DNA of 64,000 nucleotides, from NCBI RefSeq assembly GCF_014636865.1, contig NZ_BMER01000001.1, positions 1,538,718 to 1,602,717 of the forward strand, in the 5' to 3' direction. Made by a program: the position numbers and the translations under genes. This DNA is from Parapedobacter pyrenivorans (lineage in GTDB: Bacteria; Bacteroidota; Bacteroidia; Sphingobacteriales; Sphingobacteriaceae). Each line of letters opens with the position of its first letter. Position 1 is the stretch's first letter. Positions 2,584 to 55,332 of the stretch are shown in pieces. The notes below the pieces were generated by a model, which was not told where the DNA came from, made no database searches, and was given only the letters and a program-made list of their open reading frames with translations.

Positions 2584-5022
2584 TCACTCATCCCTCAAAC
2601 TATCCACCGGATTCGCCAATGCCGCCCTTATCGCCTGTGAGCCCACTGTCAGTGCCGCGGTCACCATGGCTACCAATCCCGTACCTGCAAACATCCACCA
2701 TTCCATATCGATGCGGTAGGCAAAGTCAGCCAACCAGCTATTCATGGCCCACCACGCGATGGGCGAAGCGATAACCAACGCAATGACAACCAGTTTTACA
2801 AAATCTTTAGACAAGAGCTGTACGATGCTGCCTACCGTTGCGCCGAGCACCTTGCGGATGCCGATTTCCTTGCCGCGCGTGTTAATGGTGTAGGTAGCCA
2901 AACCCAATAATCCCAGGCAACTGATTAAGATGGAAAGTGACATCGCCCAGGTCAGTAAGCTGGCGGTAGCTTGTTCGTGTTCGTAAAACTGAGCAATCAT
3001 TTCATCCACAAATTGGTAGTTGAAATCCTCATCGGGATACAGGCCGTGGTAAGCTTTTTGGATTTGGGCGATCGCATGGCTCCACGACTGGCCATCTCGA
3101 TTTGGCTTGAGTCGTACATGGAACGTCGATCCGTTGTTTTTTTGAAACAACAGCGGCATAATGGACGATCTGGTGGATTGATGATGGAAATCTTTCATGA
3201 TTCCCACAATCGGTACCGCATTGCCATTCCAATTGAGAAACTTACCCAAAGCCTCTTCGGGCCGTTGAAAGCCGATTTCCTTCACAAATTGCTCGTTAAC
3301 CAGTAGCTCATTCGTGGCGTCTCCGGGTGATATATTCCGGCCCGCCACCAGCTTGATTCCGTAGACATCGAGGTAATGTTCGTCACCCCATCGGATCTGC
3401 GTGGTTGGTTTTAGCTCCTCCGTCCCGTTATGAAAGGAGACCGTGGTAAAGGACACCCCGCGATCGGCCGGGGCATGAAAGCCGGTGCTCGCCAACTCGA
3501 CGCCCGGCAGGGATTGGACGGTATGCAGTAGCTGTCTGCTTTTCGTTTCGGCCGTATCCCGAGGAGTGTCAAATTTGAAGATGGCCCCCGTATCGAACCC
3601 CATATCGGAGTCGATGGAATAGTTGATTTGCTGGCTTACGATGAGGGTTGCCAAAATAAAGAACTGGGCTATGGCGAATTGGGATATCGTGAGTATTTTC
3701 CTTACGCCAGCATGGCGGGTCTGCCCGGTCAGTCCCGAAACCTGATTTCTTAAAACGGATGTAGGGGTAAATCCGGATAGTATCAGTGCCGGATAGCATC
3801 CCGAAAGAAAGCTGACTACGGCGACGAGCAGTAGGAGTACGAACAGATAACCCGGTTGGAACATGAAATCGGCCGTCAGCCCTTCAGGGATGAATTTGGA
3901 AAAGAGTCGAAGAATGATCGGTATGGATAATATCGAAAGGACGGTAGCGACACTGGTCATGACGACGGTTTCGCCCAGGAATTGTTGAATCAATTGCCGC
4001 TTGGAGCTGCCCATTGTTTTACGCACACCAATTTCCTTTGCCCGCTGCGATGCTTGCGCGGTAGTGAGGTTGATAAAATTAATACAGCCCAATGCGAGCA
4101 GGAAAGCCGCCACGGCCATTAAGCCGTATAGGGTCGACTTCTGTGCAATACGGCCGCCGATATTGGGGTAGAGGCGATTGAAATGGATGTCATGGAGCGG
4201 TTGCAGGCTAAGCGTGATGTCTTTGCCCCGTTCCGTGTTGTGTTGCTGATAGAACGTATTCAGTTGGGCTTGGAAGGCCTGTGCAGACTGGTTTGCCGAT
4301 AATTTGACATAGAGTTGGGAATAGGCCATCCAGTCATCCCACACATCCATCATGAAATTTTCCTTCAGCGAAGAAGCTTCGATGGTTGCCAAGGAAATGA
4401 ACTCCCTGCCATTGAAATCCGTCGGCTTATCCAGATCGCCTACTACACCGGAGACGGTAAGGGTGAGGTCATTGTACGTGAGTTGTTTGCCGATGACCGC
4501 GGTCGGAGACAAGTCCGGAAAATAGAGCCGTGCGCGGCTTTGGGTGAGGACGACCGTGAATGGCTGGGCAAGTGCAGAAGATTGCTGCCCACTAATCCAC
4601 TGGTATCCCAACAACCGAAAATAGTCGTTATTGGTAAAGACGACGTCTTTTTGCTTTTTGAACAAAAGCGGCTTTGAAGCATGATCCTCATCGATCCGCA
4701 CATGAATGGTCGCATCCCCTTGAAATTGGAACACTGGAACGGTTTGCTCGATTCCGGTAATCTCGTTGGGTATAGCGCTGCCCAAAGGCGCAGGCACGCC
4801 TACACTGTGACCTTCAACGCCATTGAAATTGGCATCAATTACGATGCGGTATATCCGGTCGCTATCTCGTTGGAAGGTGTCGAAGCTGAATTCGTAATAA
4901 ACAATCAAGGAGATGACCAGAGCCGCGCTGATTCCAATGGAAAGTCCAAGCAAATTCAATACCGTGAAGAGCTTGTTGCGCCATAGGTGGCGATAAGTGG
5001 TAGTGAAAAAGTTCTTTATCAT
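2584..5022 (-). CDS. FtsX/MacB-type ABC transporter permease
   Basis: 812-residue inner-membrane permease with the duplicated architecture common in Bacteroidota: a membrane segment near 20-43, a periplasmic MacB-like core, an FtsX block with RAKEIGVRK at 327-335, a second periplasmic region, and a second FtsX block starting with KEIGIRKVLG at 718. It ends in the tail NPVDSLRDE, which recurs in paralogues here. It is the third permease behind the ATPase at 10046-10720 and starts 24 bp after the preceding permease, so the two are probably co-transcribed. The role is inferred: export or envelope remodelling powered by the operon's ATPase, probably with a HlyD-type adaptor. The substrate is unknown. 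Confidence 0.9.
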   Translation of the reverse strand: MIKNFFTTTYRHLWRNKLFTVLNLLGLSIGISAALVISLIVYYEFSFDTFQRDSDRIYRIVIDANFNGVEGHSVGVPAPLGSAIPNEITGIEQTVPVFQFQGDATIHVRIDEDHASKPLLFKKQKDVVFTNNDYFRLLGYQWISGQQSSALAQPFTVVLTQSRARLYFPDLSPTAVIGKQLTYNDLTLTVSGVVGDLDKPTDFNGREFISLATIEASSLKENFMMDVWDDWMAYSQLYVKLSANQSAQAFQAQLNTFYQQHNTERGKDITLSLQPLHDIHFNRLYPNIGGRIAQKSTLYGLMAVAAFLLALGCINFINLTTAQASQRAKEIGVRKTMGSSKRQLIQQFLGETVVMTSVATVLSILSIPIILRLFSKFIPEGLTADFMFQPGYLFVLLLLVAVVSFLSGCYPALILSGFTPTSVLRNQVSGLTGQTRHAGVRKILTISQFAIAQFFILATLIVSQQINYSIDSDMGFDTGAIFKFDTPRDTAETKSRQLLHTVQSLPGVELASTGFHAPADRGVSFTTVSFHNGTEELKPTTQIRWGDEHYLDVYGIKLVAGRNISPGDATNELLVNEQFVKEIGFQRPEEALGKFLNWNGNAVPIVGIMKDFHHQSTRSSIMPLLFQKNNGSTFHVRLKPNRDGQSWSHAIAQIQKAYHGLYPDEDFNYQFVDEMIAQFYEHEQATASLLTWAMSLSILISCLGLLGLATYTINTRGKEIGIRKVLGATVGSIVQLLSKDFVKLVVIALVIASPIAWWAMNSWLADFAYRIDMEWWMFAGTGLVAMVTAALTVGSQAIRAALANPVDSLRDE

Positions 5023-5046: not shown

Positions 5047-7419
5047 TCACTCGTCCCGCAACGATTCCACCGGGTTGGCCACTGCCGCTCGGATTGCCTG
5101 CCAACTGACCGTCAATAGCGCAATCAGTAACGCTGCGCCTCCGGCTAAAACAAACATCCACCATTGGATATCAATCCGAAATGCGAAATCGTCCAGCCAG
5201 GTATTCATTACCCACCAAGCAATTGGCGACGCAATGACCACGGCCAATACCACCAAAAGGATGGATCCGGCGGATAGGAGCTGTACAATGCTTGCCACAC
5301 TAGCTCCCAGTACTTTGCGGATGCCGATCTCCTTCACCCGTTGGCGGACGGTATAGGTAGAAAGCCCCAAAAGACCGAGGCAGGAAATGAAAATCGCAAT
5401 GCCGGCGAATATGTTGAATAGCAAGCCGGCACGCTGATCTGTCCGGTATTTAGCTTCAAATTGTTGGTCGACGAAATTATACTTAAAAGGAGCAGGGGAG
5501 TCACCTGCATATTTTTGGTATTGCTGTTCAACGGCCTTGATGGCATTCGAGGCCTCAGCCGCAGTGGTACGTACATACAGCATGCTGCCGTCGTACCAGT
5601 GGAAAAAAAGGAGGGGAGAAATTTTTTCCTTGAGCGACTTAAAATTGAAGTCCTTCACGACACCAGCAATGGTTCCCGGGCGGTCGTGGAAGCTGATGGG
5701 CGTACCCACATAAGGCGGAGTGAGGCCCATTTCCCGAACGGCTGCTTCGTTGACAACATATAAGTTGCTGTCGGCGGCGGTACCGGTTAAATTTCGCCCT
5801 TCCAGCAATTGGATGCCCATCGTGGGTATAAAATCTTTGTCGATCGATGACTGAGCGATGATGAGGCTGCTGTTGACCGGTTTTCCGGGCCACTCGAGGT
5901 CGCCGGTCGCATTGCCCATATTGGTGATGTCATACATGTCCGAAAGGGCGACATTAACGATACCGGGATGATTCCTTAACTCATTTTTTACCGCTTCGAT
6001 ATGCTCTACTGCATCATCGGGAAGCGCCACACTGAATACGTAACTTTTATCGTAGCCGAGATCGAGCTTCCGCATATAGGTCATTTGGCGACTGATGACG
6101 AACGTGGCAACGATCAATACCATGGAGATGGCAAACTGGAAGACAACAAGTGCTTTGCGTAATAATGTGACTCCAACCCCGGATGCCATTTTCCCTTTCA
6201 TCACCTGGAGTGGTTGGAAACCGGATAGCAGGAGTGCGGGATAAATCGCCGCCGCCAATAACGTACCTAAAGCCGAGTAACCGATGACTTTCCAGATTTC
6301 CATGTTGGATAGCGAAAAATGAAGTTGCTTGCCAGCGATGTCGTTGTACAAGGGTAGGAGTACGACAATCAATCCGACGGCAACCAGCAATGCGAAACAG
6401 AAGAGCAGCGCGGTCTCCACGATAAATTGCAGGAACAATTGCACCTTGCTGGCGCCGACGACCTTCCGGATGCCGACTTCACGGGCCCTCACGAGTGCCC
6501 GGGCGGTAGTCAAATTGATATAATTGACGGCCGCGATCGCTAATACCATGATGGCAATGAGTAAGAAAATCTGTACCATCCTTGCAGCGGCGTTGTTTCC
6601 GTCAGCACTCACCAGGTGCATGTCTGCTAGAGGCTGTAAGTTAAACTGTACCGTGCTTTCCCCGTTTCTGGCATCTTTATAAAGTTGGGTGAATTTTTTT
6701 CCAACGACCTCCGGATGGGCCCCGTCTCGTAATTTGACAAAAGTGGTAAAGGAGTAGCTGCCCATGTCTACATCGATGGTTTTCCACTGGCCATTGCCCC
6801 CATCAGCGGTAAATCGCTGCGCATAATGGGCCATGGGTAGTATGGCATCAAATGCCAAGGATGAATTGTCTGGAAAGTCGTGCAGCAATCCAGTAACGGT
6901 GAGGTTATCTCCCCTAAATTGAAGCACCTTGCCCAAAGGATCATCATCACCAAAGAATTTTTTTGCAGTCGATTCAGTCAGGACGATGCTATACGGATCG
7001 GGGAACAGCTGCTCGGGCCTGCTTTTGAGTAGTTCGAAGTTGAATAGCGATAGGAAGGTGCTATCTACATAAGCCGTAGTGAAACCATCGAGGACTGTGC
7101 TCCGGTCTTCGGTCGCCAACACCTGGCCGTTCCACTCATTGATGCGGACAATCCCCTCAACCTCGGGCAGCGATTGGGCGTATATGGCTAATGGACCAGG
7201 TACTCCCTCCCAAACGGTATTGGCATCCAAATGGGCGGTAAACCGATGGATTCGGGAAAAGTCCTTATGGAAGCGATCGTAACTTTTTTCATGTTGCACC
7301 CAAAGGAGCAGCAAAATAGCGGTAGCAAGACCGAACGCCAAGCCACTGATGTTAACGAAGGTATGGAACTTGTGTTCCTTCAGGTTCCGCCACGCGGTTT
7401 TGAAATAGTTTCTGATCAT
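5047..7419 (-). CDS. FtsX/MacB-type ABC transporter permease
   Basis: 790-residue permease of the same family and layout as its neighbours: an N-terminal membrane anchor after a short basic start, a periplasmic core of about 230 residues, an FtsX block with RAREVGIRKVVGAS, a second core, and a final FtsX block with VKEIGIRKVLGAS. It ends in NPVESLRDE. It is the second permease of the operon. A 113-bp gap holding palindromic repeat copy D precedes it, and 24 bp separate it from the next permease. Several permeases behind one ATPase suggest alternative or heteromeric membrane partners. That is an inference from gene order. Confidence 0.9.
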   Translation of the reverse strand: MIRNYFKTAWRNLKEHKFHTFVNISGLAFGLATAILLLLWVQHEKSYDRFHKDFSRIHRFTAHLDANTVWEGVPGPLAIYAQSLPEVEGIVRINEWNGQVLATEDRSTVLDGFTTAYVDSTFLSLFNFELLKSRPEQLFPDPYSIVLTESTAKKFFGDDDPLGKVLQFRGDNLTVTGLLHDFPDNSSLAFDAILPMAHYAQRFTADGGNGQWKTIDVDMGSYSFTTFVKLRDGAHPEVVGKKFTQLYKDARNGESTVQFNLQPLADMHLVSADGNNAAARMVQIFLLIAIMVLAIAAVNYINLTTARALVRAREVGIRKVVGASKVQLFLQFIVETALLFCFALLVAVGLIVVLLPLYNDIAGKQLHFSLSNMEIWKVIGYSALGTLLAAAIYPALLLSGFQPLQVMKGKMASGVGVTLLRKALVVFQFAISMVLIVATFVISRQMTYMRKLDLGYDKSYVFSVALPDDAVEHIEAVKNELRNHPGIVNVALSDMYDITNMGNATGDLEWPGKPVNSSLIIAQSSIDKDFIPTMGIQLLEGRNLTGTAADSNLYVVNEAAVREMGLTPPYVGTPISFHDRPGTIAGVVKDFNFKSLKEKISPLLFFHWYDGSMLYVRTTAAEASNAIKAVEQQYQKYAGDSPAPFKYNFVDQQFEAKYRTDQRAGLLFNIFAGIAIFISCLGLLGLSTYTVRQRVKEIGIRKVLGASVASIVQLLSAGSILLVVLAVVIASPIAWWVMNTWLDDFAFRIDIQWWMFVLAGGAALLIALLTVSWQAIRAAVANPVESLRDE

Positions 7420-7532: not shown

Positions 7533-9917
7533 TCACTCATCCCTAAGCGAATCCACTGGATTAGCCAATGCCGCTTTGATGGCTTGCCAGCTTACGGTCA
7601 GTAATGCGATTGCTGCTGCTAATATGCCCGTCATCGCGAATACCCACCATTCAATATCGATTCGATAGGAATAACTGGCTAGCCACTTGTTCATGGCATA
7701 CCAGGCAATGGGCGAGGCGATAACGAACGAGAACATCACTAGTTTCAGAAAATCTTTCGACAGCAGTTGCGTTACGCTCCATATCGATGCACCGAGCACC
7801 TTCCGTACACCGATTTCTTTGGTGCGGCTTTCTGCCATGTAAGCTGCCAGGCCAAACAAACCCAGGCAGGATATGACAATAGTGAGCAGCGCAAAGAGAC
7901 CCGCCAGTTTGCCGGAGCGTTCCGCGCTCTTGAATTTCTCCGCATAGTTCTCATCGACAAATACATACTCAAACGGATATTGTGGGTTGTACGCCTTGAA
8001 AATCTTCTCCATCCGGGCAAGGTTGTCTGCCGTGCTGTTATCGGCGTTAAGTTTTACATGCAGGATATAGGGCGAATATCCGGCGGGTCCGTTGATCATC
8101 ATCGGGCTGATGGTTTGCTCGAAAGGCGACTGCAGGATGAAATCCTTGATAACCCCCACTACGTGGAAGTATTCGGTCCCGTCAACCCACTTGATACGGG
8201 TGCCAACGGGATTCTTAAGCCGCATGGCTTTTACGGCCGCTTCGTTCAATAGGATTGCCATGCTATCGGTAGGGAATTTGTACACGTCGATATCGCGGCC
8301 GGCAACCAATTCAATACCAAAGGTTTTTGTGAAATCAGCATCCGTACCCAAACGTACAAAGTCAAGCTTTTCATCGGCCTTTGTGCTCCCTTCCCAGTGG
8401 AAGCCCCAGCTGTCGCTCCACTGCTGGGTGATGGGGTTAGCCGAAAGCGAGACCGAGGTTGCTGCACCGCCGGTGAGCAGCTCGTTTTTTATGGCAGCAT
8501 AATGCTTGTCCATATCTCCCTGATAAAAGAGGTATACCATGTTCTCCCGGTCATATCCGGTATCTCGGTTCAACCCATGTTGGATTTGGCGGTAAACGAT
8601 GATGGTGGCAATAATGAGGATGATGGCAAAGGTAAATTGGATCGTCACTAACACCTTTCTTGGAGCAATCAGGGCATTTTCCTTCTTGAACGTTCCCTTG
8701 AGCACACTTATGGGATTGAACGATGAGAGGTAGAAGGCAGGGTAGCTGCCTGCAACCAAACCGGTTATTAGGATAAACCCAGTGACAAATAGCCAGAAAA
8801 AGGGGTCGCCATAGGGTATGAAGAGTGCTTTCCCCACCAATTGGTTGAAACCACCCAAACTCAATTGGACAATCAGTAAAGCAACGAGGAAAGAAAAGAT
8901 ACTGAGGAGAATGCTTTCGATGAGGAACTGCGTGATCAATAAGGTCTTACTTACGCCCACAACCTTTCGGATACCTACTTCCTTTGCACGCCGCTCGCTT
9001 CGCGCAGTGCTGAGATTCATAAAGTTGATGCAAGCGATCAACAGAATAAATGCAGCGAGTACCATGAATAGCCGTACGGTGACCAGGTTGCCGGCCACCA
9101 ATCTGCCGTCTTCCGACTTATTATACAGGTAATAGCGGCTCAAGGGCTGCGTAAATACTTCGGTCGTAGAGGCGCTTGCCGTTTCTTTTGTGTGGTCTAT
9201 GGTGATGGTCCTTATCTTTCGGTCGAAAGCTGCTTGGCTTGCTCCGGGTTTCAACAGCGTGTACGTATTGACGGAATTATTGCCCCAATGGGTGTCGTTC
9301 CAGCCCAACCGTTCCAAATGTTCCCAAGGGAGCAGGTAGTCAAACGCCAATAGGGTATTGTTCGGCAGATCCTTTAGAATACCAGTTACGGTCACGTTAC
9401 GGTTGCTATCGATGCGGATGGTTTGGCCCATGGCATCCGCGTTACCGAAGAGTGTTTTAGCGAATTGCTCAGTCAGGACAATATTATGGCCATCTGCCAA
9501 CGCCGTGGCGGGATCTCCTTTTATCAGCGGAAAACTGAAAACGTTGAAAAAGCCACTGTCTGTAAAAGCACCTCGCGAATTGAAGTTTTTGTCGCCAACG
9601 GTGAATAAGAACGTCATGTTATTGATCCGCACGGCATCTTCCACCTCGGGATAATCGGCTTTTAAGGTTGGAGCCAGTATCTTGGGGGTATTGCCCCACG
9701 CCCAGCGGTTGCCATCGGGGCCGGTATCCCGGTTGTACATCACATAGATACGGTCTTCTTTTTCGTGAATCCGCTCCATACTCAGCTCATTCTGGATCCA
9801 TACGATGATCAACAATGCAGCAGCCATGCCAATGGATAACCCGGTGACGTTGATCAATGAATAAGCCTTGCTTTTAGCGAAGTTCCGGAATAATGTACGG
9901 AGATAGTTCTTGATCAT
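7533..9917 (-). CDS. FtsX/MacB-type ABC transporter permease
   Basis: 794-residue permease, first of the four behind the ATPase. Features in order are a membrane segment near residues 18-40, a periplasmic MacB-like core, an FtsX block with RAKEVGIRKVVGVS near residue 310, a second periplasmic stretch, and an FtsX block with TKEIGVRKVLGAS followed by three membrane segments. The C-terminus is NPVDSLRDE. It is most like the permease at 49116-51482, which shares the FMNLSTARSE-type stretch before the first FtsX signature. The 128-bp gap to the ATPase contains palindromic repeat copy E. Membership of the family is clear; the transported compound is not. Confidence 0.9.
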   Translation of the reverse strand: MIKNYLRTLFRNFAKSKAYSLINVTGLSIGMAAALLIIVWIQNELSMERIHEKEDRIYVMYNRDTGPDGNRWAWGNTPKILAPTLKADYPEVEDAVRINNMTFLFTVGDKNFNSRGAFTDSGFFNVFSFPLIKGDPATALADGHNIVLTEQFAKTLFGNADAMGQTIRIDSNRNVTVTGILKDLPNNTLLAFDYLLPWEHLERLGWNDTHWGNNSVNTYTLLKPGASQAAFDRKIRTITIDHTKETASASTTEVFTQPLSRYYLYNKSEDGRLVAGNLVTVRLFMVLAAFILLIACINFMNLSTARSERRAKEVGIRKVVGVSKTLLITQFLIESILLSIFSFLVALLIVQLSLGGFNQLVGKALFIPYGDPFFWLFVTGFILITGLVAGSYPAFYLSSFNPISVLKGTFKKENALIAPRKVLVTIQFTFAIILIIATIIVYRQIQHGLNRDTGYDRENMVYLFYQGDMDKHYAAIKNELLTGGAATSVSLSANPITQQWSDSWGFHWEGSTKADEKLDFVRLGTDADFTKTFGIELVAGRDIDVYKFPTDSMAILLNEAAVKAMRLKNPVGTRIKWVDGTEYFHVVGVIKDFILQSPFEQTISPMMINGPAGYSPYILHVKLNADNSTADNLARMEKIFKAYNPQYPFEYVFVDENYAEKFKSAERSGKLAGLFALLTIVISCLGLFGLAAYMAESRTKEIGVRKVLGASIWSVTQLLSKDFLKLVMFSFVIASPIAWYAMNKWLASYSYRIDIEWWVFAMTGILAAAIALLTVSWQAIKAALANPVDSLRDE

Positions 9918-10045: not shown

Positions 10046-10720
10046 TCACCCCACCGTTTCCATCAATACCTGCCCATCCAACATGCGGATGATGCGATCG
10101 GCATAGCGGGCGTCGTGTTCACTGTGCGTTACCATCACGATGGTCGTACCTTGTTCATTCAGCTCGGTGAGCAATTGCATCACCTCATTACCGTTGTTGG
10201 AGTCGAGGTTACCGGTAGGCTCATCCGCAAGGATCAGCTTGGGGTTGTTCACCACGGCACGGGCTACGGCCACGCGTTGTTGCTGGCCGCCCGAAAGCTG
10301 CTGGGGGAAATGATTGCGGCGGTGCATGATCTGCACTTTTTCCAAAACTTCCTCTACGCGTTTCTTGCGCTCTGCTGCCGGCACTTTGGTATAGATAAGT
10401 GGCAACTCTACGTTTTCGAATACCGTAAGCTCGTCGATGAGGTTAAAGCTTTGAAAGACGAAGCCAATATTGTGCTTGCGTAGGTCCGAGCGCTTGCGCT
10501 CGTTGAATTTGGCCACCTCGATGCTGTTAAAGAGGTAGCTTCCATTGTCCAGGTCGTCCAATAAGCCGACGATGTTAAGCAACGTGGATTTTCCACATCC
10601 AGAGGGACCCATTACGGCGACGAATTCACCCGCTTTCACGTGAATGCTCAAATTGTTGAGCGCAACCGTTTCCACTTCTTCGGTACGGTAAAATTTTTGC
10701 AGTTCGGTAATTTTGATCAT
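10046..10720 (-). CDS. ABC transporter ATP-binding protein, MacB/LolD type
   Basis: 224-residue cytoplasmic ATPase that would power the FtsX/MacB permeases. Walker [10 protein letters not shown] lies at 38-46, the Q-loop at FVFQSFNL near 88-95, the signature LSGGQQQR at 142-149, Walker B LILADE at 162-167, and the H-loop histidine in MVTHSEHD. Length and motifs fit the LolD/MacB/FtsE group of single-domain ATPases. It is the first gene of the minus-strand operon that continues through four permeases. Upstream are two 16-bp palindromes and a TTGGAACG element (10833-10929), matching those in front of the HlyD operon at 55178. It may therefore also energise the two permeases there, which have no ATPase of their own; this last point is inference. 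Confidence 0.93.
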
Positions 10721-10832
10721 GTTTATACAGCTATCAGCAGTCGGCCATCAATTTTCGGCAGTCGGCCTATGCGTGGTTCGTTATTCATTGTGGTTACTCA
10801 ATATTATTCTTTAATCCTTCACCCTATATTAT

Positions 10833-10929
10833 CGTTCCAATTTTTTAACTAGCTGAAAAACAGCTGTAAAACACGATATCAGGTTTGCGGACTGTCCGAT
10901 ATCGGACACCTCATGTTCGCTTGCGGACA
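10833..10929 (-). promoter_or_regulatory. Twin-palindrome promoter region of the ATPase-permease operon
   Basis: The palindrome TGTCCGATATCGGACA (10893-10908) is perfect. A second copy, TGTTCGCTTGCGGACA (10914-10929), starts exactly 21 bp away, two helical turns. Reading toward the gene, TTGGAACG (10840-10833) follows 55 bp after the first palindrome. This resembles a -24 element of a sigma-54 promoter with enhancer sites, although the -12 part (TATA) is not canonical. The same layout is found at 55229-55332. Confidence 0.65.
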
Positions 10930-15886: not shown

Positions 15887-17821
15887 TTAATAGCCAGGAT
15901 TCTGTACTAAATTAGGGCTCTTGGTGATTTCACCCGGATCGATCTGTTGGTAATACCAGCGCGTGTCAAACGTGAAGATGGCGTTGCGCTCTTCAAAGCG
16001 ATCGTCAAAAAACCATTTTTCTGCGTTTTCTGCGTAGAACGGCATCAGGGCGCGGTAGGTACGTCCATTTTGCTCATCATCCATGATCCGCCAGCGCTTC
16101 AGGTCCCACCAGATTTTGTTCTCAAAGCTGAGTTCTTTCCGCCGTTCCTTCCGGATGATATCAATAGATGTCAGCGCAGCCGGGCTTGGTAATATATCCG
16201 CGCCGGCCCTTTCTTGGATTTGCCGGATGCATTCGTAGGCATCACCCAAATAGTCGGCGCCGCCTTCGCCCGCCTCGGCCAGCTCATAAGCGGCTTCGGC
16301 CCGGTTGAGGAGCACTTCTGCATAACGCAGTTCAATCCAGGTCTGGTCCGAACGGTTTTCGACGACCAGTGCGGGGGGCATGTCGGGATTGAGCCATTTC
16401 CGGACGGAGAAGCCCGTCAGTGCGGGAGCTGCGAAGTTGAAGAAACGTCCGCTCCGGCCGGCAGGGTTCATCAGCGTGCCGTCGGGCAGTTCGTGCGGCT
16501 CCTGCTGTGGAACGGCCGACGTGACCAACCGGGATGCGGCGGATGAATTCTCATAAGTCGTACGCGCACCCACCGGTTGCAACCGGTCTATTCCGCCGGC
16601 AACATCGCCGGTATAGATGCCACGCCAGATTTCCACGGTTTCATTCTTGAGCTGATCACCGGGGAAAATGATCGTCGCCCGTAGACGGGGTTCGGCATCC
16701 GCAAAAAAGTCCATTTGGTTGTCATAGAGTTCGTATTTTCCTGCTGCATCGTAAACCTCAATGCGGCCATCGCTCGTTTTAGGTAGGCCATCGAAGAGCT
16801 CTACAAAATCGAGCGTCGGGTTAACGGAAGAGGAATAGCCGGCGACCTGAAATTGGTAGGGGATGTTGTACACGTCATAACCGTGCACGGATTCGGGATA
16901 GCCGTATTGCTTCACAAAGATGTTTTCAGGGCTCTCCTCGTCAAAAAACAGATCCACATAATTTTGGTACTGCGCCTCTTTGTCGTCGGCTTGCCATCCG
17001 TTTTTGTACAGTGAATAATGGCCTTCCAGTAGTTTGGCCGCATCATAAGCCTGCTTGAAAAAATCAGCGGCCCGCTCGGCGGGAATACCACACAGCCGGC
17101 TATTCTCATTGTCAAATAGCGTAATTTCATTGTACTTAGCGATGGAACCGCCGAATAGCATCGCCCGGGATTTGAAACCGGCAGCAGCGTATTTGTTGGC
17201 CCTGCCTGTTTGGTTGCTTTCGGGGAGCAGCTCCCAGGCCTGGTCAAAATCGGCAGCGATATGATTGTAAGTCGCTTCCTCTGATGAACGGGGTACCTGC
17301 AGCTGCTCAATCGGCTGCTCCGGGAAGTTAAGGACCTCGTCCACGATCGGCACACCACCGTAACGCTTCGCTAGCTCGAAATAGGTTACCGCACGCATGA
17401 AATACGCTTCACCCAGCCAATGGTCTACGTCTTCTTGGCTAAAGCGGGAGGCTTCCATGTACGTGGGCAACGTCTTGATGAAATAGTTAATGTCGCGGAT
17501 CAGCGCGTAGGCATTCCCCCAATAATAGACGGCTTCGGTTTCGGCCGAGCTCTGATTGGCGGACAACGCTTCCCCGGTAATTGTGGGGAAGGGATCGATG
17601 ATCCAGAATTCGTTGAATCCCCGCCTCGGTGTATAGCGGAAATCTTGGATGGGAAGCTGGCCATACAGCCGGGCCATGTAACTGGCGATGCCGTTGGGGC
17701 TGCCAAATATATCATCGTCCTGTACGACATTCATCGGCGGCACGTCCAGCTTGGTACAGGCCGGAACGGTAAATAGCAGGGCCAATGACAGTATAATGGT
17801 ATTATATCTTGATGGTCTCAT
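15887..17821 (-). CDS. SusD/RagB family outer-membrane lipoprotein (PUL1)
   Basis: 644 residues. The signal ends in VPACTKLDVPP with Cys22, so it is a lipoprotein expected on the outer surface as the lid of the SusC channel. It has the SusD traits: tetratricopeptide-like helices in the N-terminal half (YFMRAVTYFELAKRYGGVPI), and near the C-terminus IIRKERRKELSFENKIWWDLKRW, the family's most conserved stretch (quoted from ERRKELSFE onwards in spirit; positions about 560-585). It ends with SPNLVQNPGY, the usual SusD tail. It starts 8 bp after the SusC stop codon. Together the two import an oligosaccharide; its identity is not readable from sequence. Confidence 0.95.
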   Translation of the reverse strand: MRPSRYNTIILSLALLFTVPACTKLDVPPMNVVQDDDIFGSPNGIASYMARLYGQLPIQDFRYTPRRGFNEFWIIDPFPTITGEALSANQSSAETEAVYYWGNAYALIRDINYFIKTLPTYMEASRFSQEDVDHWLGEAYFMRAVTYFELAKRYGGVPIVDEVLNFPEQPIEQLQVPRSSEEATYNHIAADFDQAWELLPESNQTGRANKYAAAGFKSRAMLFGGSIAKYNEITLFDNENSRLCGIPAERAADFFKQAYDAAKLLEGHYSLYKNGWQADDKEAQYQNYVDLFFDEESPENIFVKQYGYPESVHGYDVYNIPYQFQVAGYSSSVNPTLDFVELFDGLPKTSDGRIEVYDAAGKYELYDNQMDFFADAEPRLRATIIFPGDQLKNETVEIWRGIYTGDVAGGIDRLQPVGARTTYENSSAASRLVTSAVPQQEPHELPDGTLMNPAGRSGRFFNFAAPALTGFSVRKWLNPDMPPALVVENRSDQTWIELRYAEVLLNRAEAAYELAEAGEGGADYLGDAYECIRQIQERAGADILPSPAALTSIDIIRKERRKELSFENKIWWDLKRWRIMDDEQNGRTYRALMPFYAENAEKWFFDDRFEERNAIFTFDTRWYYQQIDPGEITKSPNLVQNPGY

Positions 17822-21480: not shown

Positions 21481-23259
21481 TTAATGTCCAGGAGTTTCTT
21501 CAGAGCGGATTTCGGTTTTTGCTGCTTCGGCCGGTCGGGCTTCCTGCACCACGTTTGAAGAAGTGGAAGCAACCAGGCCATCCAGGTATTCGAATACCGA
21601 TTCACACACTTGTGCAGCATGCGTTCGGAACCTATCGTAGTTGGCGATGGCAGTGGTTAGGTCTGTGTCTGTCGGTGCATCCTCTTTCTTGTAACGCACC
21701 GCATTCAAGCTGTTGGCGAGGGCTTTGAGTGCATCTTTATCCGCGTCGCGCCCCGTAACGAAGCATTCCGCAAGTTCGGGCGATATCAAGTTGCAGACCT
21801 GGAGCAGGAACGGGATGTTGCATTGGTCTACGCGATAGCCGATACCGGCATAAATTAAGCCGATGCAAAGCTGTTCGAGGCTTTGGGCAACAAGCATGGT
21901 GGCGGCACCGATGTCTTTCCGTTGATTACGGGCGAGTTGGGCGCACTGCAGGTAGGTGTCGGCTTTATACTTGCGGTACTTCCAGGCTGCGCGTGATTTT
22001 TCAAGCGCGAGCGACCAATCCGGTTCGGGCACGGAAAGCGGTTGCAAGCCTTCGTGTACATAGAGGGTGGTTCCCTTGGATAAGGCCTGGATAAAGAAGT
22101 GGTTTTTCTTTTCCAACGCGTGTTTCGTGTGCTGGGCAGCACAGAGGAGTACGGTGACGCGGATAAGTGGGTGGACGATGGTATGGCTTTTGGATGTGCT
22201 GCCTGAGCCGATGCCCAGTACATAACAATGGCCCATTTTCGCTGATGCAGGCTGGTCGGAAGTGTAACGTATCAATTTTTTGGTTTGGCTGATTTCATGG
22301 CCCAGGAGGATGAGGTAATCCAGTGCTTCGCGTTTGGCGACACCGGTCAGGATGGTGTTGAACGCTTTAGCCTGTTCGATGGCCAATTCGGCCGATAATG
22401 GTTCGGGCAAGGTGATTTTTATCGCATGCGGGCTGTCATCTGGTGTTATTACCGGTTCGACAGGCGCCGGATCGACCGCTTTATTGATGAGCAATTCCAG
22501 TGCCCGCATGCATTGATCGTAATACCTATTACACCATTCCAATAGCGGTATAAGTTTTTGGTATAGCTGGTCCAGTTCTTCGGGTTCGACATCGAAATTC
22601 CGTTGGTAGCGCACCGCGGTATACGATTGGTCGATAAGTTTCAAGAGGCGGAAGTAGTGCGGTTCACCTTTGGGAAACAGCTCGGCGAATTCGGGGATGT
22701 ATTTGCCCATCAGCCTGAGGTGTTCCTGCAAGCCGTGGCTAGGCCGATCACGCTTGAACACGGCGTTTTCTATCCCGCGGAAGGTCAGCTCAGCCGCTTG
22801 GTGCAGCATGAAGAGTGCTTGTGCATGGTTTCCTTTTTCACGGTAGAAATGCATCCCGTCAAGGAAATCCAGTTGTTTGACACGACCTTTTTCATAATGT
22901 TCTTGCGCTTTCGTCCGGACACTTTCCAGCTGTTTCCGCGATAGGATAGGTAGCGGCTTTTTACCGCTGAGTAGACGCAGGTGTGGTTCGCGGCAAGCCA
23001 ATAGGTAATAAAGCGAGCCGTTATTAAGGGCCGTTTTCAGTTCGCCATAAGGAATAAGGTCGAAACTATGTTCCGGCGCTTCGGCGAGGCAGAGCTCGGC
23101 CATGGGTTCCAGCGTTTTGACGGCCACTTGGCATTTAGCACCCACCACAATGAGCAATCGCCTTGCAGTGGTATCGATAAAAGGATACTCAAATTCAAAG
23201 ATGCGGTCAACCGGGATTTTGGTAGCCAGCTTGTCGAGGATGGGCTGTAAGATATGCAT
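21481..23259 (-). CDS. Tandem nucleotidyltransferase-like/HEPN-like protein
   Basis: 592 residues that divide into two similar halves. Each has an alpha/beta part (about 1-125 and 285-425) reminiscent of minimal nucleotidyltransferases, followed by a helical HEPN-like part (about 137-250 and 430-562). The HEPN-like parts carry corresponding stretches: FMLHQAAELTFRGIE with AVRYQRNF at 216-222, and MLVAQSLEQLCIGLIY with AVRYKKED at 520-527. The R-x4-6-H ribonuclease motif is not present, and I see no clear GS-x-D-x-D nucleotidyltransferase site. HEPN/MNT pairs often form toxin-antitoxin modules; here both would sit in one chain, so the activity is uncertain. The gene diverges from a small XRE regulator, with twin operators between them, suggesting repression by that regulator. 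Confidence 0.7.
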   Translation of the reverse strand: MHILQPILDKLATKIPVDRIFEFEYPFIDTTARRLLIVVGAKCQVAVKTLEPMAELCLAEAPEHSFDLIPYGELKTALNNGSLYYLLACREPHLRLLSGKKPLPILSRKQLESVRTKAQEHYEKGRVKQLDFLDGMHFYREKGNHAQALFMLHQAAELTFRGIENAVFKRDRPSHGLQEHLRLMGKYIPEFAELFPKGEPHYFRLLKLIDQSYTAVRYQRNFDVEPEELDQLYQKLIPLLEWCNRYYDQCMRALELLINKAVDPAPVEPVITPDDSPHAIKITLPEPLSAELAIEQAKAFNTILTGVAKREALDYLILLGHEISQTKKLIRYTSDQPASAKMGHCYVLGIGSGSTSKSHTIVHPLIRVTVLLCAAQHTKHALEKKNHFFIQALSKGTTLYVHEGLQPLSVPEPDWSLALEKSRAAWKYRKYKADTYLQCAQLARNQRKDIGAATMLVAQSLEQLCIGLIYAGIGYRVDQCNIPFLLQVCNLISPELAECFVTGRDADKDALKALANSLNAVRYKKEDAPTDTDLTTAIANYDRFRTHAAQVCESVFEYLDGLVASTSSNVVQEARPAEAAKTEIRSEETPGH

Positions 23260-47474: not shown

Positions 47475-49112
47475 ATGGAAAATTTTGGTCTATTGATTTT
47501 CAAGGGGCTGGGCTGGGGGATTATCCATTCCTTATGGATGGGTGCTATCCTTTATGGTTCACTGCTCTTAGCCTTCCAGTTTTTAAACGGACGTGCGAAA
47601 ATAAAATCGTTGCTGGCGGTAGTGGCATTATTGGTACTATCGGGATTCTTTTTCCTGACGTCTTTATATTACATAGCGGCTGATGTGAAAAGTGATCTGG
47701 CGGCTTTTACGGATGGTGCTGTCGCGTTTTTCCCATTGTCCGACTATAACAGTTCGTTTTCCTTCAAGGCAACGGTGGAACAGTATTTCCCATTAGTTGC
47801 CGTTTTTTATGCGCTTGGTGTACTCTTCCAGTTGGCATTGGTTGTAAGTGGTTTCCGAAAGTTACGTATGATCCGTACACAGGGCTTATTGGAAGTGCCC
47901 GAATCGTGGAAAGCGTTGCTGGCTAGCAAAAAGCAACAGCTGGGTCTTCGCAAATCCATCGCATTCCACCTTTCCACATTGGTGGATGTTCCGGCAGTAA
48001 TCGGCCACTTTAAGCCGGTTATCTTATTTCCTTTGGCACTTTTTTCCGGGATAAGCCCGGAGCAGGTAGAGACGGTGCTCATCCACGAATTGGCACACAT
48101 CAAGCGACGCGACTACCTCTTCAATCTCGTTAAAATAATCGCGGAGACGCTATTATTTTTCAATCCTTTTGTGTGGCTTATCGGTAGAATGCTTGAGACA
48201 GAGCGGGAAAACGCATGCGACGACATGGTGGTGGAGCTGACATCAAGTCCTATCCGATATGCGCAGACGTTGCTGTGGCTGGAAGAGCGACGCCAGCTGC
48301 CAAGCTATCGGCTGGCCATGCAGGCAATCACGAAGAAAAAGCAATTATTACTCCGAATTCAACGAATGACTAATATGAAAATTAACTATTTGAATGCCAA
48401 GCATAAATTGGCTATCCTGACACTATTGCTAGGCTGTATCGCTTCGCTCGCTTGGGTGAAACCCTTTGCGCGGGATACGGAGCCAACGGAAATGTACGTG
48501 TTACCAGCGGTCGCCGTTGATACGGTGGCTGCCCTAGCTGTGGATGCTGAAAAAAACATCGTGTTCCAGGCGGTAGCAAATGATACACTGCCCCCGGGCA
48601 GAAAATCGAACATCACCTTTACCGCTAGCAGCAGTGCAACGCAGACGTTTGAACCCTACGAGGATCTTCCGGATAGCCTGAAGATAGAAGTGGATGCCGC
48701 TCGGCATCATGCTGATTCGATCAAGGCGTACTTTTCTTCCCCTGAATGGAAGGAAGAGCAACGCAAGATAACTGCTGAAGTCCGTAAGCAGACGGATTCG
48801 ATAAAGGCATATTTTTCCTCCCCTGAATGGAAAGAAGAGCAACGCAAGATAACTGCTGAGGTCCGTAAGCAGACGGATTCTATCAAAGCGTACTTCACGT
48901 CTCCGGAATGGAAGGAGGAGCAGCGGAAAATAACGGTAGAAGTCCGCAAGCAGGCAGATTCGTTAAAGGCATATTTCGATTCGCCTGAATGGAAGGAAAA
49001 AATGGAGAAAATGAAGTGGTCCGACGAGGAACTGCGCAAACTCATCGAGCCGGTACGCAGACAAGCCGATTCGATCAGGATTCACTTCGAATCGGCAGAG
49101 CGGTTACCCTAG
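47475..49112 (+). CDS. M56 family (BlaR1-like) membrane sensor peptidase with C-terminal repeats
   Basis: 545 residues. Several membrane segments in the first ~150 residues and another near 315-335 surround a zinc peptidase domain. The motif is HELAH at 204-208, followed by KRRDYLF and the downstream ETERENACDD. It probably cleaves the BlaI-type repressor encoded just upstream when a periplasmic signal is sensed. The C-terminal part after about residue 414 lacks a penicillin-binding domain. Instead it has four to five tandem 27-residue units of the type DSIKAYFSSPEWKEEQRKI. These are charged, probably helical or coiled, and presumably periplasmic. The last codon lies 4 bp from the convergent permease gene. 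Confidence 0.85.
   Translation: MENFGLLIFKGLGWGIIHSLWMGAILYGSLLLAFQFLNGRAKIKSLLAVVALLVLSGFFFLTSLYYIAADVKSDLAAFTDGAVAFFPLSDYNSSFSFKATVEQYFPLVAVFYALGVLFQLALVVSGFRKLRMIRTQGLLEVPESWKALLASKKQQLGLRKSIAFHLSTLVDVPAVIGHFKPVILFPLALFSGISPEQVETVLIHELAHIKRRDYLFNLVKIIAETLLFFNPFVWLIGRMLETERENACDDMVVELTSSPIRYAQTLLWLEERRQLPSYRLAMQAITKKKQLLLRIQRMTNMKINYLNAKHKLAILTLLLGCIASLAWVKPFARDTEPTEMYVLPAVAVDTVAALAVDAEKNIVFQAVANDTLPPGRKSNITFTASSSATQTFEPYEDLPDSLKIEVDAARHHADSIKAYFSSPEWKEEQRKITAEVRKQTDSIKAYFSSPEWKEEQRKITAEVRKQTDSIKAYFTSPEWKEEQRKITVEVRKQADSLKAYFDSPEWKEKMEKMKWSDEELRKLIEPVRRQADSIRIHFESAERLP
48714..49037 (+). repeat. Four tandem 81-bp repeats inside the M56 gene
   Basis: Units begin at 48714, 48795, 48876 and 48957 (each starting GATTCG/GATTCT), and a short fifth start is at 49068. 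The first two are almost identical in DNA and the fourth is diverged in its second half. Each encodes 27 residues. Near-identical DNA copies suggest recent expansion, so copy number may vary among strains. Confidence 0.85.
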
Positions 49113-49115
49113 CGA

Positions 49116-51482
49116 TTATTCATCCCTTAGGCTTCTCGTCGGGTTTGTCAACGCAGCCTTGATGGCCTGTGAGCTTACGGTAAGCAATGCAATCAGCAGC
49201 GCACCCCCGCCAGCCAGCGCAAACACCCCCCAGTGCAGGTCGGTGTGGTACTGATAGTTGTCCAGCCAGTCGCTCATGATCCACCACGCGATGGGGAAGG
49301 CTACCGTGCAGGAGAGCAGTACGAGTACGACAAATTCGCGGTTGAGCAACCCGACCAATGACGAGATTGATGCTCCCAATACCTTGCGGATTCCCATTTC
49401 CTTTGTACGTCGCTCGGCGGTGAAGGCAGCGAGGCCAAAGAGGCCGAGACAAGAAATAATAATGGAGATTACAGCGAATACACCCGCCAGTTTCTGGATC
49501 AGCATTTCCGATTTGAATTTTTCATTAAAGACATTATCCAGAAACTCGTACTCAAATGGATATCCCGGATTGGTTTCCTTAAGGATTTCGCCGATCTGGG
49601 AAACCGTTTTCGACAGGTTCATCCCCGCTTTGGTCTTGATGTTGAGTACGCCCCACTTGGTCGCAAACGGATAGAACAGCACAGGTTCGGCAGGTGTATA
49701 CACGTTGTTGTACACAAAATCTTTCACGACGCCGACAATGGTGTGGGTGTCTTCACCCCAACGCACGGTTTGTCCTGCAACCCGGCCATCGGGCTGGATG
49801 AGCTTGGCAAAGGCCTCGTTAATAACGATGCTGCTGCTGTCGCCTAGCATATGCGGCCGGAAGTTGCGCCCATCGATCAACTGCATTCCCATGGCTGGAA
49901 TGAAGTCGGCATCGGTATGGAGGATACCGATCAATATTTGCTTGTTTGGATCTTTGTTTTCCCAGCTGATGCCCCAAGTATTCGAACCGATATTCAGCAC
50001 CCTCATGTTGCTAAGCCCCGCGGTTTCGACACCACCGGTAGCGATGAGCTTTTCCTTGATGACATCCAGGTGTTCCAGCATCTTCCCCCGCAAAGGTGTG
50101 GTCATGACCTGGCTATGCTCGAAGCCCATATCACGGCCCTTCACGTGCTGGATTTGTTGAAAAATGATAACCGTACAGACAATAAGGGTAATGGAAGCAG
50201 CGTATTGGATAATCACCAGCCCCCTACGTATGAACCCGGCCATGCCAGCTTTCTGTCTAGCTCCCTTTAGGGTAGCGATTGGGTTGAAGGATGAAAGGTA
50301 AAATGCCGGATAGCTTCCGGAAACGAGACCGCATACCACCACGATGCAGACCAGGAAGGCGAGGTGCATGGGTTCAACTAATCCAACCGTCAGCTCCTTT
50401 TCGACCAAGCTATTGAAAGGCCCGATGAATACAAAAATAAGTCCGATCGCAAACAGTGCCGACAGTGCGGCGAGAATCAGCGACTCGCCTAGAAATTGGC
50501 CAATGAGGGAGGTTTTGGTAGCCCCTACCACCTTGCGCATGCCCACTTCCTTAGCCCGTTTTTCCGAACGGGCTGTAGCAAGGTTCATGAAGTTGATGCA
50601 GGCAATGAGGAGTACCACCCAAGCGATAATGCTGAACAACCGCACGAATTTAATGCGGCCTTCCTGTTCGTTCCCATCGCGGTCGAAGCTGTTGTATAGC
50701 CGCCAGCGTTCCATCGGGTACAGGAAATTCTTATAGAACAGATCGTCACCCACTTTACGTTCCGCAAAATCATAGAACTGTTTGTTGACGTCGGCGAGAT
50801 CGGCCGAGGCCTCCAGCTGCACATACGTCAGGAAGCTGTTGTTGCCCCATGTCTCAAATCCGCCCTCACTCTGGCTTTCAAATTTTTTAAATGGAATAAT
50901 CCAATCAAACTGCACACTGCTGTTCTTGGGTAGATCCGCTACTATACCGGCAACGGTGTAACTTTCTTCATTGTTTATTCGTACCTGCTTGCCCATGGCC
51001 GGTTCGTTACCGAAAAGGCGTGCAGCAGCTTTTTGGGTCAGCACAATGTCGTTGATGTTGCCCATCGCGGAGGCCCGGTTGCCTTCGATGAATTCCAGCG
51101 AGAAGATGTCGAGGAAGTCAGGATCGGCATAGAACCCGGTTTGGTAGAGGGTCTTTTCGCCCAGATTGAACAGGAGTGGCGTTGGCCAGTTTACTCGCGC
51201 CGCGTACTTGACACCAGGCAACTCCGCTTTAATCGCAGGAGCTAATGGCCCAGGATTAGCTTCAAACACATAGGTGCCGCCATCGTGGGTTTGCTTGGAC
51301 TTCGATATATAAATATATTCCTTATTCGGAAAATGATTGTCATAGCTCATTTCGTCTTCCACCCATAGGAAAATGAGCGACGCGCAAGTGATGCCGATGG
51401 CCAGGCCAAAAATGTTAAGAAAACTGTATCCCCTGGTTTTCCAAAGGTTGCGAAAGGTGGTTTTGATGTAATTTTTTAGCAT
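49116..51482 (-). CDS. FtsX/MacB-type ABC transporter permease
   Basis: 788 residues with the double FtsX layout: an N-terminal membrane segment near 20-42, a periplasmic core, an FtsX block with RAKEVGMRKVVGAT, a second core, and a final FtsX block with TKEMGIRKVLGASISSLV, ending in NPTRSLRDE. By eye it is closest to the permease at 7533-9917. It is the last gene of the second efflux operon (HlyD adaptor, permease, permease), 49 bp after the preceding permease. The operon has no ATPase, so ATP hydrolysis must be supplied from elsewhere, possibly by the protein at 10046-10720. Confidence 0.9.
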   Translation of the reverse strand: MLKNYIKTTFRNLWKTRGYSFLNIFGLAIGITCASLIFLWVEDEMSYDNHFPNKEYIYISKSKQTHDGGTYVFEANPGPLAPAIKAELPGVKYAARVNWPTPLLFNLGEKTLYQTGFYADPDFLDIFSLEFIEGNRASAMGNINDIVLTQKAAARLFGNEPAMGKQVRINNEESYTVAGIVADLPKNSSVQFDWIIPFKKFESQSEGGFETWGNNSFLTYVQLEASADLADVNKQFYDFAERKVGDDLFYKNFLYPMERWRLYNSFDRDGNEQEGRIKFVRLFSIIAWVVLLIACINFMNLATARSEKRAKEVGMRKVVGATKTSLIGQFLGESLILAALSALFAIGLIFVFIGPFNSLVEKELTVGLVEPMHLAFLVCIVVVCGLVSGSYPAFYLSSFNPIATLKGARQKAGMAGFIRRGLVIIQYAASITLIVCTVIIFQQIQHVKGRDMGFEHSQVMTTPLRGKMLEHLDVIKEKLIATGGVETAGLSNMRVLNIGSNTWGISWENKDPNKQILIGILHTDADFIPAMGMQLIDGRNFRPHMLGDSSSIVINEAFAKLIQPDGRVAGQTVRWGEDTHTIVGVVKDFVYNNVYTPAEPVLFYPFATKWGVLNIKTKAGMNLSKTVSQIGEILKETNPGYPFEYEFLDNVFNEKFKSEMLIQKLAGVFAVISIIISCLGLFGLAAFTAERRTKEMGIRKVLGASISSLVGLLNREFVVLVLLSCTVAFPIAWWIMSDWLDNYQYHTDLHWGVFALAGGGALLIALLTVSSQAIKAALTNPTRSLRDE

Positions 51483-53924: not shown

Positions 53925-55178
53925 TTAATTACTAATGCTCAACTCCTGTACCCGATCGTATGTCTCATAACTGGAGGTTACCACTTTATCTCCCGGTTCC
54001 AGCCCGCTCACCACTTCATAATAGTCGGGGTTTTGACGACCGAGCTGTACATCTACACGATAAGCCGTCTTTCCATCTTCCGTAAGCTTAAACACCCAAT
54101 TGCCGCCGGTTTGCTGATAGAAGCCGCCCTTGGCCAACAGGATGGCCTTGGTCTCATCGCTGAGGGCAAGACGGATTTGGAGGGTCTGCCCGCGGCGGAT
54201 GCCCTCAGGAATCTCGTTTACAAATTCCATATCCACCTGGAAGCGTCCGTTGGTCACTTGCGTATATACCTTCTTGATGACAAGCTTATAGCTTTTCCCA
54301 GCAAACGTAAACTCACCCTCCAAGTCGGGGTAAATGCGGGAAATATAATGCTCATCGATATCCGCACGGACTTTGAATCCGGTAAGCACGTCGATTTGGC
54401 CGAGGCGCTCGCCTGCGGGTTTGTTCTGCCCAATTTCGGCATCGAAGGACGTCAGTTGTCCGTCTACCGGTGAACGAAGGATGAGATCATCCACTTTTTG
54501 ACGCATCAGCGCCAGTGCAGACATGCCGCTGGAGTACAATTTTTCGTTTTGTTGGAGTGATTGGACACTTCGGATCGAATCTTGCTCAATGTTTTCCCGT
54601 GTCAACTTGATCCGCTCTAGCTGATAATCGTATTCATTTTTAGCCTGCTGATATTCTTGCGAACCAATTGCTTTTTTTTCAAACAAGGTCTTATTGAGAT
54701 CATATAGCCGCTTAGCCTCTTTTAAGGCATTTTCAGCATCGACCATTTGATTGCGATTCGAAATAGAAGTTTGTTGGGCGTTCGTTTGGGCGATCTGCAT
54801 CTGGGTCAGGTTGTTGTATACGTTCGTTTCCTGGCTTACCAGGCTCAATTCCAAATCGGTATTCGAGAGCCGCATAATCGGGTCACCTTTTTTGAGTTTG
54901 GCCCCGTCCTCTACAAACTTTTCTTCCACCCGCCCGCCTACGGAGGCATCGAGGAAGATGCTGGTAAGGGGTAGTACCGTGCCGTTTACCGGTATAAATT
55001 CACGGAAGGAGTCTTCTTTCACTTCTGATATGGTGATACGTTCGGCATCCACATTGAGCCGCGAGTTGCCGGAGGTAAAATAATAACTGGCGAAGATCAA
55101 GGCCAAGATGCCCGCCCCACCCGCAACCATCGCGATGCGTTTACTGTTCCATCTTTTTTTTGGTAATGCTCTATCCAT
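53925..55178 (-). CDS. HlyD/RND-type periplasmic adaptor (membrane fusion) protein
   Basis: 417 residues. A membrane anchor at about 15-33 is followed by a split lipoyl-like domain (GGRVEEKFVEDGAKLKKGDP and LILRSPVDGQLTSFDAEIGQ), a long coiled-coil hairpin between them (about 115-225), a beta-barrel domain and a membrane-proximal domain (EVVSGLEPGDKVVTSS). Adaptors of this family link an inner-membrane transporter to a TolC-like channel. It heads the operon with two MacB-type permeases. Its promoter region shares the twin palindromes of the ATPase operon at 10720, implying joint control. No outer-membrane channel gene is in the window. Confidence 0.92.
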   Translation of the reverse strand: MDRALPKKRWNSKRIAMVAGGAGILALIFASYYFTSGNSRLNVDAERITISEVKEDSFREFIPVNGTVLPLTSIFLDASVGGRVEEKFVEDGAKLKKGDPIMRLSNTDLELSLVSQETNVYNNLTQMQIAQTNAQQTSISNRNQMVDAENALKEAKRLYDLNKTLFEKKAIGSQEYQQAKNEYDYQLERIKLTRENIEQDSIRSVQSLQQNEKLYSSGMSALALMRQKVDDLILRSPVDGQLTSFDAEIGQNKPAGERLGQIDVLTGFKVRADIDEHYISRIYPDLEGEFTFAGKSYKLVIKKVYTQVTNGRFQVDMEFVNEIPEGIRRGQTLQIRLALSDETKAILLAKGGFYQQTGGNWVFKLTEDGKTAYRVDVQLGRQNPDYYEVVSGLEPGDKVVTSSYETYDRVQELSISN

Positions 55179-55228
55179 TTTCTTGTCGCTATCGGCTGTC
55201 GGCTTTATTTTCTAGCCACCCATTACCA

Positions 55229-55332
55229 TACAACGCCGTGCCAAAAATATAACTAATTTGGATACAGTGTGTTGTGGTGGTGGGTAAAATGAAACTGTTC
55301 GATATCGGACACCTGTTGTGCGGTAGCGGACA
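55229..55332 (-). promoter_or_regulatory. Twin-palindrome promoter region of the HlyD operon
   Basis: TGTTCGATATCGGACA (55296-55311) and TGTGCGGTAGCGGACA (55317-55332) start 21 bp apart. TTGGCACG (55244-55237 on the minus strand) follows 54 bp nearer the gene, then GCGTTGTA. TTGGCACG is a textbook sigma-54 -24 element; the -12 part is imperfect. Layout and spacings equal those at 10833-10929. Confidence 0.7.

Follow-up and report, generated by a model that had tools for sequence, protein, structure and literature searches.

A twin-operator promoter shared by scattered MacAB-TolC-like exporter genes in Parapedobacter pyrenivorans points to a sigma-54-type regulon under one NtrC-type regulator

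Two minus-strand operons of Parapedobacter pyrenivorans, one beginning with an ABC ATPase gene and the other with the gene for an HlyD-type adaptor, carry the same arrangement of paired palindromes and a TTGG element upstream, which raises the question of which regulator, acting on which form of RNA polymerase, would read it. Both operons lie in the stretch analysed here (the window: 64,000 nucleotides, C1:1538718-1602717, of a 5.93 Mb genome in 11 contigs). The promoter features, numbered from the start of the window, are as follows.

10914-10929, minus strand: distal palindromic site of the ATPase operon promoter, TGTTCGCTTGCGGACA, about -116 to -101
10893-10908, minus strand: proximal palindromic site of the ATPase operon promoter, TGTCCGATATCGGACA, a perfect palindrome, about -95 to -80
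10833-10840, minus strand: TTGGAACG, between the site pair and the ATPase operon
10820-10842, minus strand: -24/-12-like element of the ATPase operon, TTGGAACGATAATATAGGG, with TTGG at 10837-10840 and a non-canonical -12 part
55317-55332, minus strand: distal palindromic site of the HlyD operon promoter, TGTGCGGTAGCGGACA
55296-55311, minus strand: proximal palindromic site of the HlyD operon promoter, TGTTCGATATCGGACA
55237-55244, minus strand: TTGGCACG, between the site pair and the HlyD operon
55225-55246, minus strand: -24/-12-like element of the HlyD operon, TTTTGGCACGGCGTTGTATGG, with TTGG at 55241-55244, in the TGGCAY-N4-TTG form shared with relatives

On the gene strand, both promoters have the distal palindrome first, the proximal one 5 bases on and TTGG about 52 bases further. 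An earlier note on this DNA had described 16-bp sites at 10893/10914 and 55296/55317, with starts 21 bp apart in both pairs, one perfect palindrome and TTGG elements nearer the genes; all of this is borne out, the perfect palindrome being the site at 10893-10908 and the TTGG elements lying on the minus strand at 10833-10840 and 55237-55244. With up to three mismatches, TGTCCGATATCGGACA matches four times in the window, where 100 shuffles gave 0.25 on average; one of the four (35442) is unpaired, and the site at 10914, with four mismatches, is not counted among them. Positions 10720 and 55178, which the note had offered as transcription starts, are instead start codons, and transcription would be expected to begin at about 10813 and 55217 if GG is taken as -25/-24.

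The genes behind the two promoters encode parts of an exporter.

10046-10720, minus strand: ABC ATPase, 224 aa, first gene of its operon (ABC_tran, 7.6e-36)
7533-9917, minus strand: duplicated MacB/FtsX permease, 794 aa, ATPase operon
5047-7419, minus strand: duplicated MacB/FtsX permease, 790 aa, ATPase operon
2584-5022, minus strand: duplicated MacB/FtsX permease, 812 aa, ATPase operon
1-2274 (C1:1538553-1540991), minus strand: fourth permease, 812 aa, crossing the window start
53925-55178, minus strand: HlyD-type periplasmic adaptor, 417 aa, first gene of its operon
51532-53910, minus strand: duplicated MacB/FtsX permease, 792 aa, HlyD operon
49116-51482, minus strand: duplicated MacB/FtsX permease, 788 aa, HlyD operon

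Co-transcription of the fourth permease with the ATPase operon is less sure because a 309-bp gap separates it from the third. The window permeases carry two MacB_PCD and two FtsX stretches, and the ATPase is a separate protein. MacB itself has a fused ATPase and a single permease domain. MacAB-TolC, the darobactin exporter DarBCD and ADOP are the nearest named models for permease, adaptor and ATPase, and the proposed regulon also contains a TolC-like channel. Unlike those systems, however, the ATPase here is separate and the permease duplicated, and four named models score below their curated cut-offs: DarB, DarC and DarD reach 124.9 of 700, 177.3 of 450 and 300.8 of 375 bits against the NCBIfam cut-offs, and the ADOP model TIGR03434, tried on one permease, aligns over residues 6-794 with 289.7 bits against a cut-off of 622.3. 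The general adaptor model TIGR01730 scores at or above its cut-off. A gene for a BlaR1-type M56 peptidase (47475-49112) faces the HlyD operon and ends just past its 3' end. Elsewhere in the window lie a SusD-type gene adjoining a 1050-aa ORF and a gene for a 592-aa protein with a HEPN domain match (15887-17821, 21481-23259), which are unrelated to the twin operators.

A genome-wide scan for the pairs, which the earlier note had set as its test, found TGTYCG-N4-CGRACA twice with starts 21 bp apart (up to three mismatches) at ten places, and at none for the reversed control. All ten lie at exporter-type genes, which disposes of the random placement that the note had named as the outcome against it: eight precede MacB/FtsX permease, ATPase or HlyD operons, one a TolC-like channel and one a decayed permease.

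C1:1470782, C1:1529636, C1:1537580, C1:1082630, C4:37903 and C6:20826: pairs before permease operons
C1:1549610: pair before the ATPase operon
C1:1594013: pair before the HlyD operon
C1:1391101: pair before the TolC-like channel
C1:1510925-1510961: pair before the decayed permease, an intact-looking operator plus TTGGCGCG; both ends of the gene survive as pieces

Single exact sites of the form TGYYCG-N4-CGRRCA number 30 in this genome, against 4 for the control, and of the unpaired ones inspected, six are inside ORFs. By hand we counted 27 frames of more than 700 aa with MacB_PCD matches in the genome, most of them without an adjoining ATPase gene. If neighbouring same-strand permeases (internal gaps of 11-373 bp) are grouped into runs and co-transcription within a run is assumed, 22 of the 27 stand in runs behind a pair and one (C6:104777) behind a mixed operator; for the other four (C1:50138, C2:300683, C2:594513 and C4:157396) no operator was found.

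The mixed operator (C6:105623) consists of a 17-bp TGTATC-N5-GATACA palindrome plus a 16-bp site, upstream of a 776-aa permease; AGGCAC comes after it, and GC occupies the canonical -12 position. Two further pairs have a 22-bp spacing: one at C1:1078632-1078669, between an ABC ATPase gene whose product is 53% identical to the window ATPase and an MFS gene, the other at C5:377170-377207, followed by a TTTGGTATAG element, upstream of a 197-aa ORF without a Pfam match.

Paired activator sites are the textbook arrangement for NtrC regulators, and the earlier note had suggested a sigma-54-type promoter. That suggestion is supported: TGG occurs in each of the ten promoters, its GG beginning 54-56 bp past the pair and C being the next base in seven, and an RpoN gene is present (C3:414725, E 1.3e-55), but the -12 position mostly reads TGT, not TGC. 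The note had also called the -12 part non-canonical, and this is only partly settled, in that eight of the ten promoters have TG at the canonical sigma-54 spacing, 11-12 bases past the first G (followed by C in one), whereas the two misfits are the two window promoters. The window HlyD promoter reads TGGCAC-N4-TTGTA. In 66 HlyD promoters of relatives the columns run TGGCAY, four variable bases, T (53), T (64) and G/T (54), and this TGGCAY-N4-TT form is one base shorter than the sigma-54 consensus. A standard Bacteroidetes -33/-7 promoter was considered and set aside by eye only. The ten promoters also share an A-N-T-T-A motif at positions 12 to 8 upstream of GG (its A, T, T and A are kept in 8, 9, 10 and 8 of the ten, respectively; 10833-10852 in the window), and in a count made without a control, six of them have a one-mismatch match to an IHF-like site, on either strand, between pair and TGG.

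Which protein might bind the pairs? Five proteins of this genome match the sigma-54 activator domain strongly and four weakly; four of the strong five have receivers, and the fifth, without one, adjoins a MiaB-like gene. Our candidate, L060, is a 450-aa protein encoded outside the window (C1:1169017-1170366; L060:7018-8370), with receiver, sigma-54 activator AAA+ and Fis-type HTH domains all above Pfam cut-offs, and shares 85-88% identity with its counterparts in six Parapedobacter species. Its sequence marks it as an NtrC-family member, the variance in its GAFTGA loop notwithstanding; that it acts through sigma-54 is not assured. The adjoining gene (L060:8373-9692) encodes a kinase with two N-terminal membrane helices that have hardly any residues between them, a kinase ATPase domain and a weak, sub-threshold PAS match. 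By a crude hydropathy scan, this kinase and 79 of 92 relatives have two segments 1-15 residues apart, and the other 13 have one. The earlier note had advised looking for a linked NtrC-type regulator. In P. pyrenivorans the candidate is unlinked: L060 adjoins no pair and no pair lies upstream of it. In relatives, twin sites lie between the regulator and the HlyD operon.

For that comparison the best 80 of 259 regulator relatives were taken, plus 18 loci chosen for regulator or pairs, giving 98 loci, 97 of which matched; L123/L240, L191/L215 and L135/L217 come from the same genomes and the sequences are related, and locus counts are not independent. A divergent HlyD gene lies within 4 kb of the regulator-kinase pair at 72 of the 97 loci, and upstream of it a loose pattern, which allowed two changes and was run without a control, found a twin-like site in 71 of the 72. 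TGG follows within the searched range at 66 of 72 loci and at 53-56 bp, always as TGGC, at 61. At L205, L208, L209 and L210 the loose pattern took a first pair without TGG, and a nearer pair facing HlyD has TGG at 55-56 bp; at L206, the TGGC found at 54 bp is oriented towards the channel. At four Parapedobacter loci whose flanks are complete (L117, L118, L119 and L121), as in P. pyrenivorans, there is no HlyD, ATPase or permease match in the vicinity of the regulator; the contigs of L120 and L122 end too soon to judge. Parapedobacter lycopersici (L125, 70%) has an intact island, in which the pair separates HlyD from channel, regulator and kinase, and TGG stands 56 bp from the pair on both sides. 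The five g2 genomes that were read have, in this order, kinase, regulator and channel, twin sites, HlyD, and then ATPase and permeases. The island of genus g3 is less closely related (regulator about 47-51%; ATPase 67% in the two genomes read) but has pairs of this type too.

Across the order, pairs with up to two mismatches occur in 46 of 121 genomes, P. pyrenivorans included, and the control gave 0 in each. Presence or absence of the regulator says little here because every genome matches some relative at E <= 0.001, and position beside pairs was used instead. Among the matches listed, and with G000 and G016 set aside, 31 of 36 relatives have a pair within 2 kb of the best regulator relative and 5 of 36 do not; among the same matches, 31 of 55 pairs lie that close. 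In most islands the ATPase shares 82-95% identity with that of the window, falling to 67% in g3 and 53% in L124, whereas the window permeases are about 27-61% identical, in best local matches to one of two queries that may compare paralogues. Possibly one motor serves many permeases; a motor held constant by its many partners would account for this difference.

Many relatives use another, 17-bp form of the site, TGTATC-N5-CGNACA. Loci with the 16-bp and the 17-bp form differ little in their recognition helix, G(L/I)TR(T/A)ALYRR, in which the T/A change is independent of site form. Genus g4, with the regulator at 66-69% in most of those listed and no 16-bp pairs, was considered as a counterexample and rejected, as the HlyD promoters of L213-L216, the four g4 genomes read, have related 17-bp twins of the form TGTATC/TGTAAC-N5-CGNACR, with a 22-bp period as read by eye.

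The pairs, their spacing, the genes behind them, the -24-like element and the linkage in relatives can be read from the DNA directly. The earlier note had proposed one NtrC-type regulator for both window operons. Given that ten pairs stand at exporter genes, that TGG follows at 54-56 bp, that RpoN is present and that relatives hold the parts in islands, we believe that at least ten sigma-54-type promoters, one NtrC-type regulator-kinase pair and scattered MacAB-TolC-like exporter parts form one regulon, a reading to which we give a probability of roughly 0.7. On this model, phosphorylated L060 would bind two palindromes two helical turns apart, centred at about -88 and -109, and would activate RpoN polymerase at a TTTGGC...TGT-like element located about 55 bp closer to the gene. 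We infer activation, not repression, and a signal of membrane stress or peptide. The targets would be a single ATPase, HlyD adaptor and TolC-like channel, plus about 22 duplicated permeases. Exporter genes of this sort form one island with the regulator in relatives, whereas in P. pyrenivorans they are scattered, each piece retaining its operator.

The same operators and sigma-54 could, however, serve another reader, namely L057, L059 or L061, or several regulators sharing the sites. The main result against our assignment comes from genome G016, which has ten pairs, permeases, a TolC-like gene and an ATPase at 50%, in which no orthologue of L060 or of the window ATPase was found, and which has relatives of L057 (78%) and L061 (71%); the unlinked position of the L060 gene in P. 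pyrenivorans points the same way. Yet an L060-type regulator is found in all four congeners of G016, and we take its absence there as a gap or a recent loss. We consider another reader unlikely in view of this, of the twin-like sites beside L060-type regulators in 71 of 72 islands, of the 31 of 36 relatives, among the matches listed, with a pair within 2 kb of one, and of what Pfam scans gave for the neighbours of L057, L059 and L061 in P. pyrenivorans (MFS, no match and Iso_dh).

If L060 is the reader, its sigma-54-contact loop, GAFTDA instead of GAFTGA, still allows that it binds the pairs and acts on another polymerase form, activating or repressing, with TGGC as part of some other element. 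Among the 97 relatives the loop is GAFTDA in 86, GAYTDA in 7, GAFTGA in 2 and GSFTGA in 2, and the -12 element is off consensus, one base short in the HlyD promoters. The consulted part of one paper reports a GAFTDA protein with which sigma-54 was not found in a pull-down, the cause being left open (PMC10714721), and that of a review describes most mutants of GAFTGA as failing and the loop as being in contact with the -12/-11 DNA (PMC7175178); in the part consulted of another paper, by contrast, GAFTDA is among the loop variants expected to keep activity (PMC4641369). Moreover, the four relatives with a glycine loop (L172, L184, L187 and L189) have TGGCAY-N4-TT promoters all the same, TGGC lies at 53-56 bp in 61 of 72 HlyD promoters, and eight promoters of P. 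pyrenivorans have TG at sigma-54 spacing. A polymerase other than that of sigma-54 seems to us unlikely. Our guess is that GAFTDA and the unusual -12 element may have co-evolved. That the promoters are alike merely as a relic of duplication, with pairs that have no role and were copied along with the permease genes, would fit a duplicated, often tandem permease family and an operator before a decayed gene. But pairs are also found ahead of ATPase, HlyD and TolC-like genes, the sequence from pair to TGG differs among the ten promoters, and the spacing is kept in other genomes, and we find a relic hardly credible.

A regulon read by L060 through sigma-54 would resemble the NtrC, NifA and ZraR systems in the receiver, AAA+ and Fis-type domains of its regulator, in palindromes at about -88 and -109 and in a TGGC -24-like element. 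The NifA site, TGT-N10-ACA, has the same outer letters as the twin operator. In contrast to those systems, the loop is GAFTDA, the -12 element mostly TGT, and many exporter operons stand under one operator. In the open-licence PMC literature searched, we found no match to the operator sequence, nor the regulator-kinase pair, nor any link between scattered permeases and a single ATPase, adaptor and channel. Six Bacteroidota or transporter terms are all absent from a sigma-54 survey (PMC3162934). A 2025 paper predicts sigma-54 promoters upstream of COG0577/FtsX-like permeases, enriched in Bacteroidia among others, and the part of it consulted is without the twin operator, the regulator-kinase pair or such a link (PMC12316311).

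The kinase invites comparison with BceS, which, according to the consulted part of one paper, has two membrane helices and no outer domain and relies on its ABC transporter (PMC8534201). As in BceRS-BceAB, a kinase built in this way is found beside an ABC exporter with an FtsX-type permease; unlike BceRS-BceAB, the system has an NtrC-type regulator, an adaptor plus TolC-like channel and many permeases, and flux sensing would be an analogy. The Bce response regulator is OmpR-type. The exporter regulon may work like Bce, yet it is not a member of the Bce module because its regulator is NtrC-type, not OmpR-type, and we read it as a Bce-like, sigma-54-wired exporter regulon. More tentatively, and with the odds rather against it, it may be the Bacteroidota counterpart of Bce, in which a kinase without an outer domain would sense, across the membrane, what MacB-type permeases are doing, and its NtrC-type partner would induce a shared ATPase, adaptor, channel and about 22 exchangeable permeases, the twin operator marking the orphan permeases of that motor.

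The analysis puts forward a candidate regulator for the sigma-54 link predicted in 2025, and the system offers a natural test of the requirements on the GAFTGA loop and the -12 element. A shared operator would show which motor, adaptor, channel, regulator and signal are used by orphan permeases.
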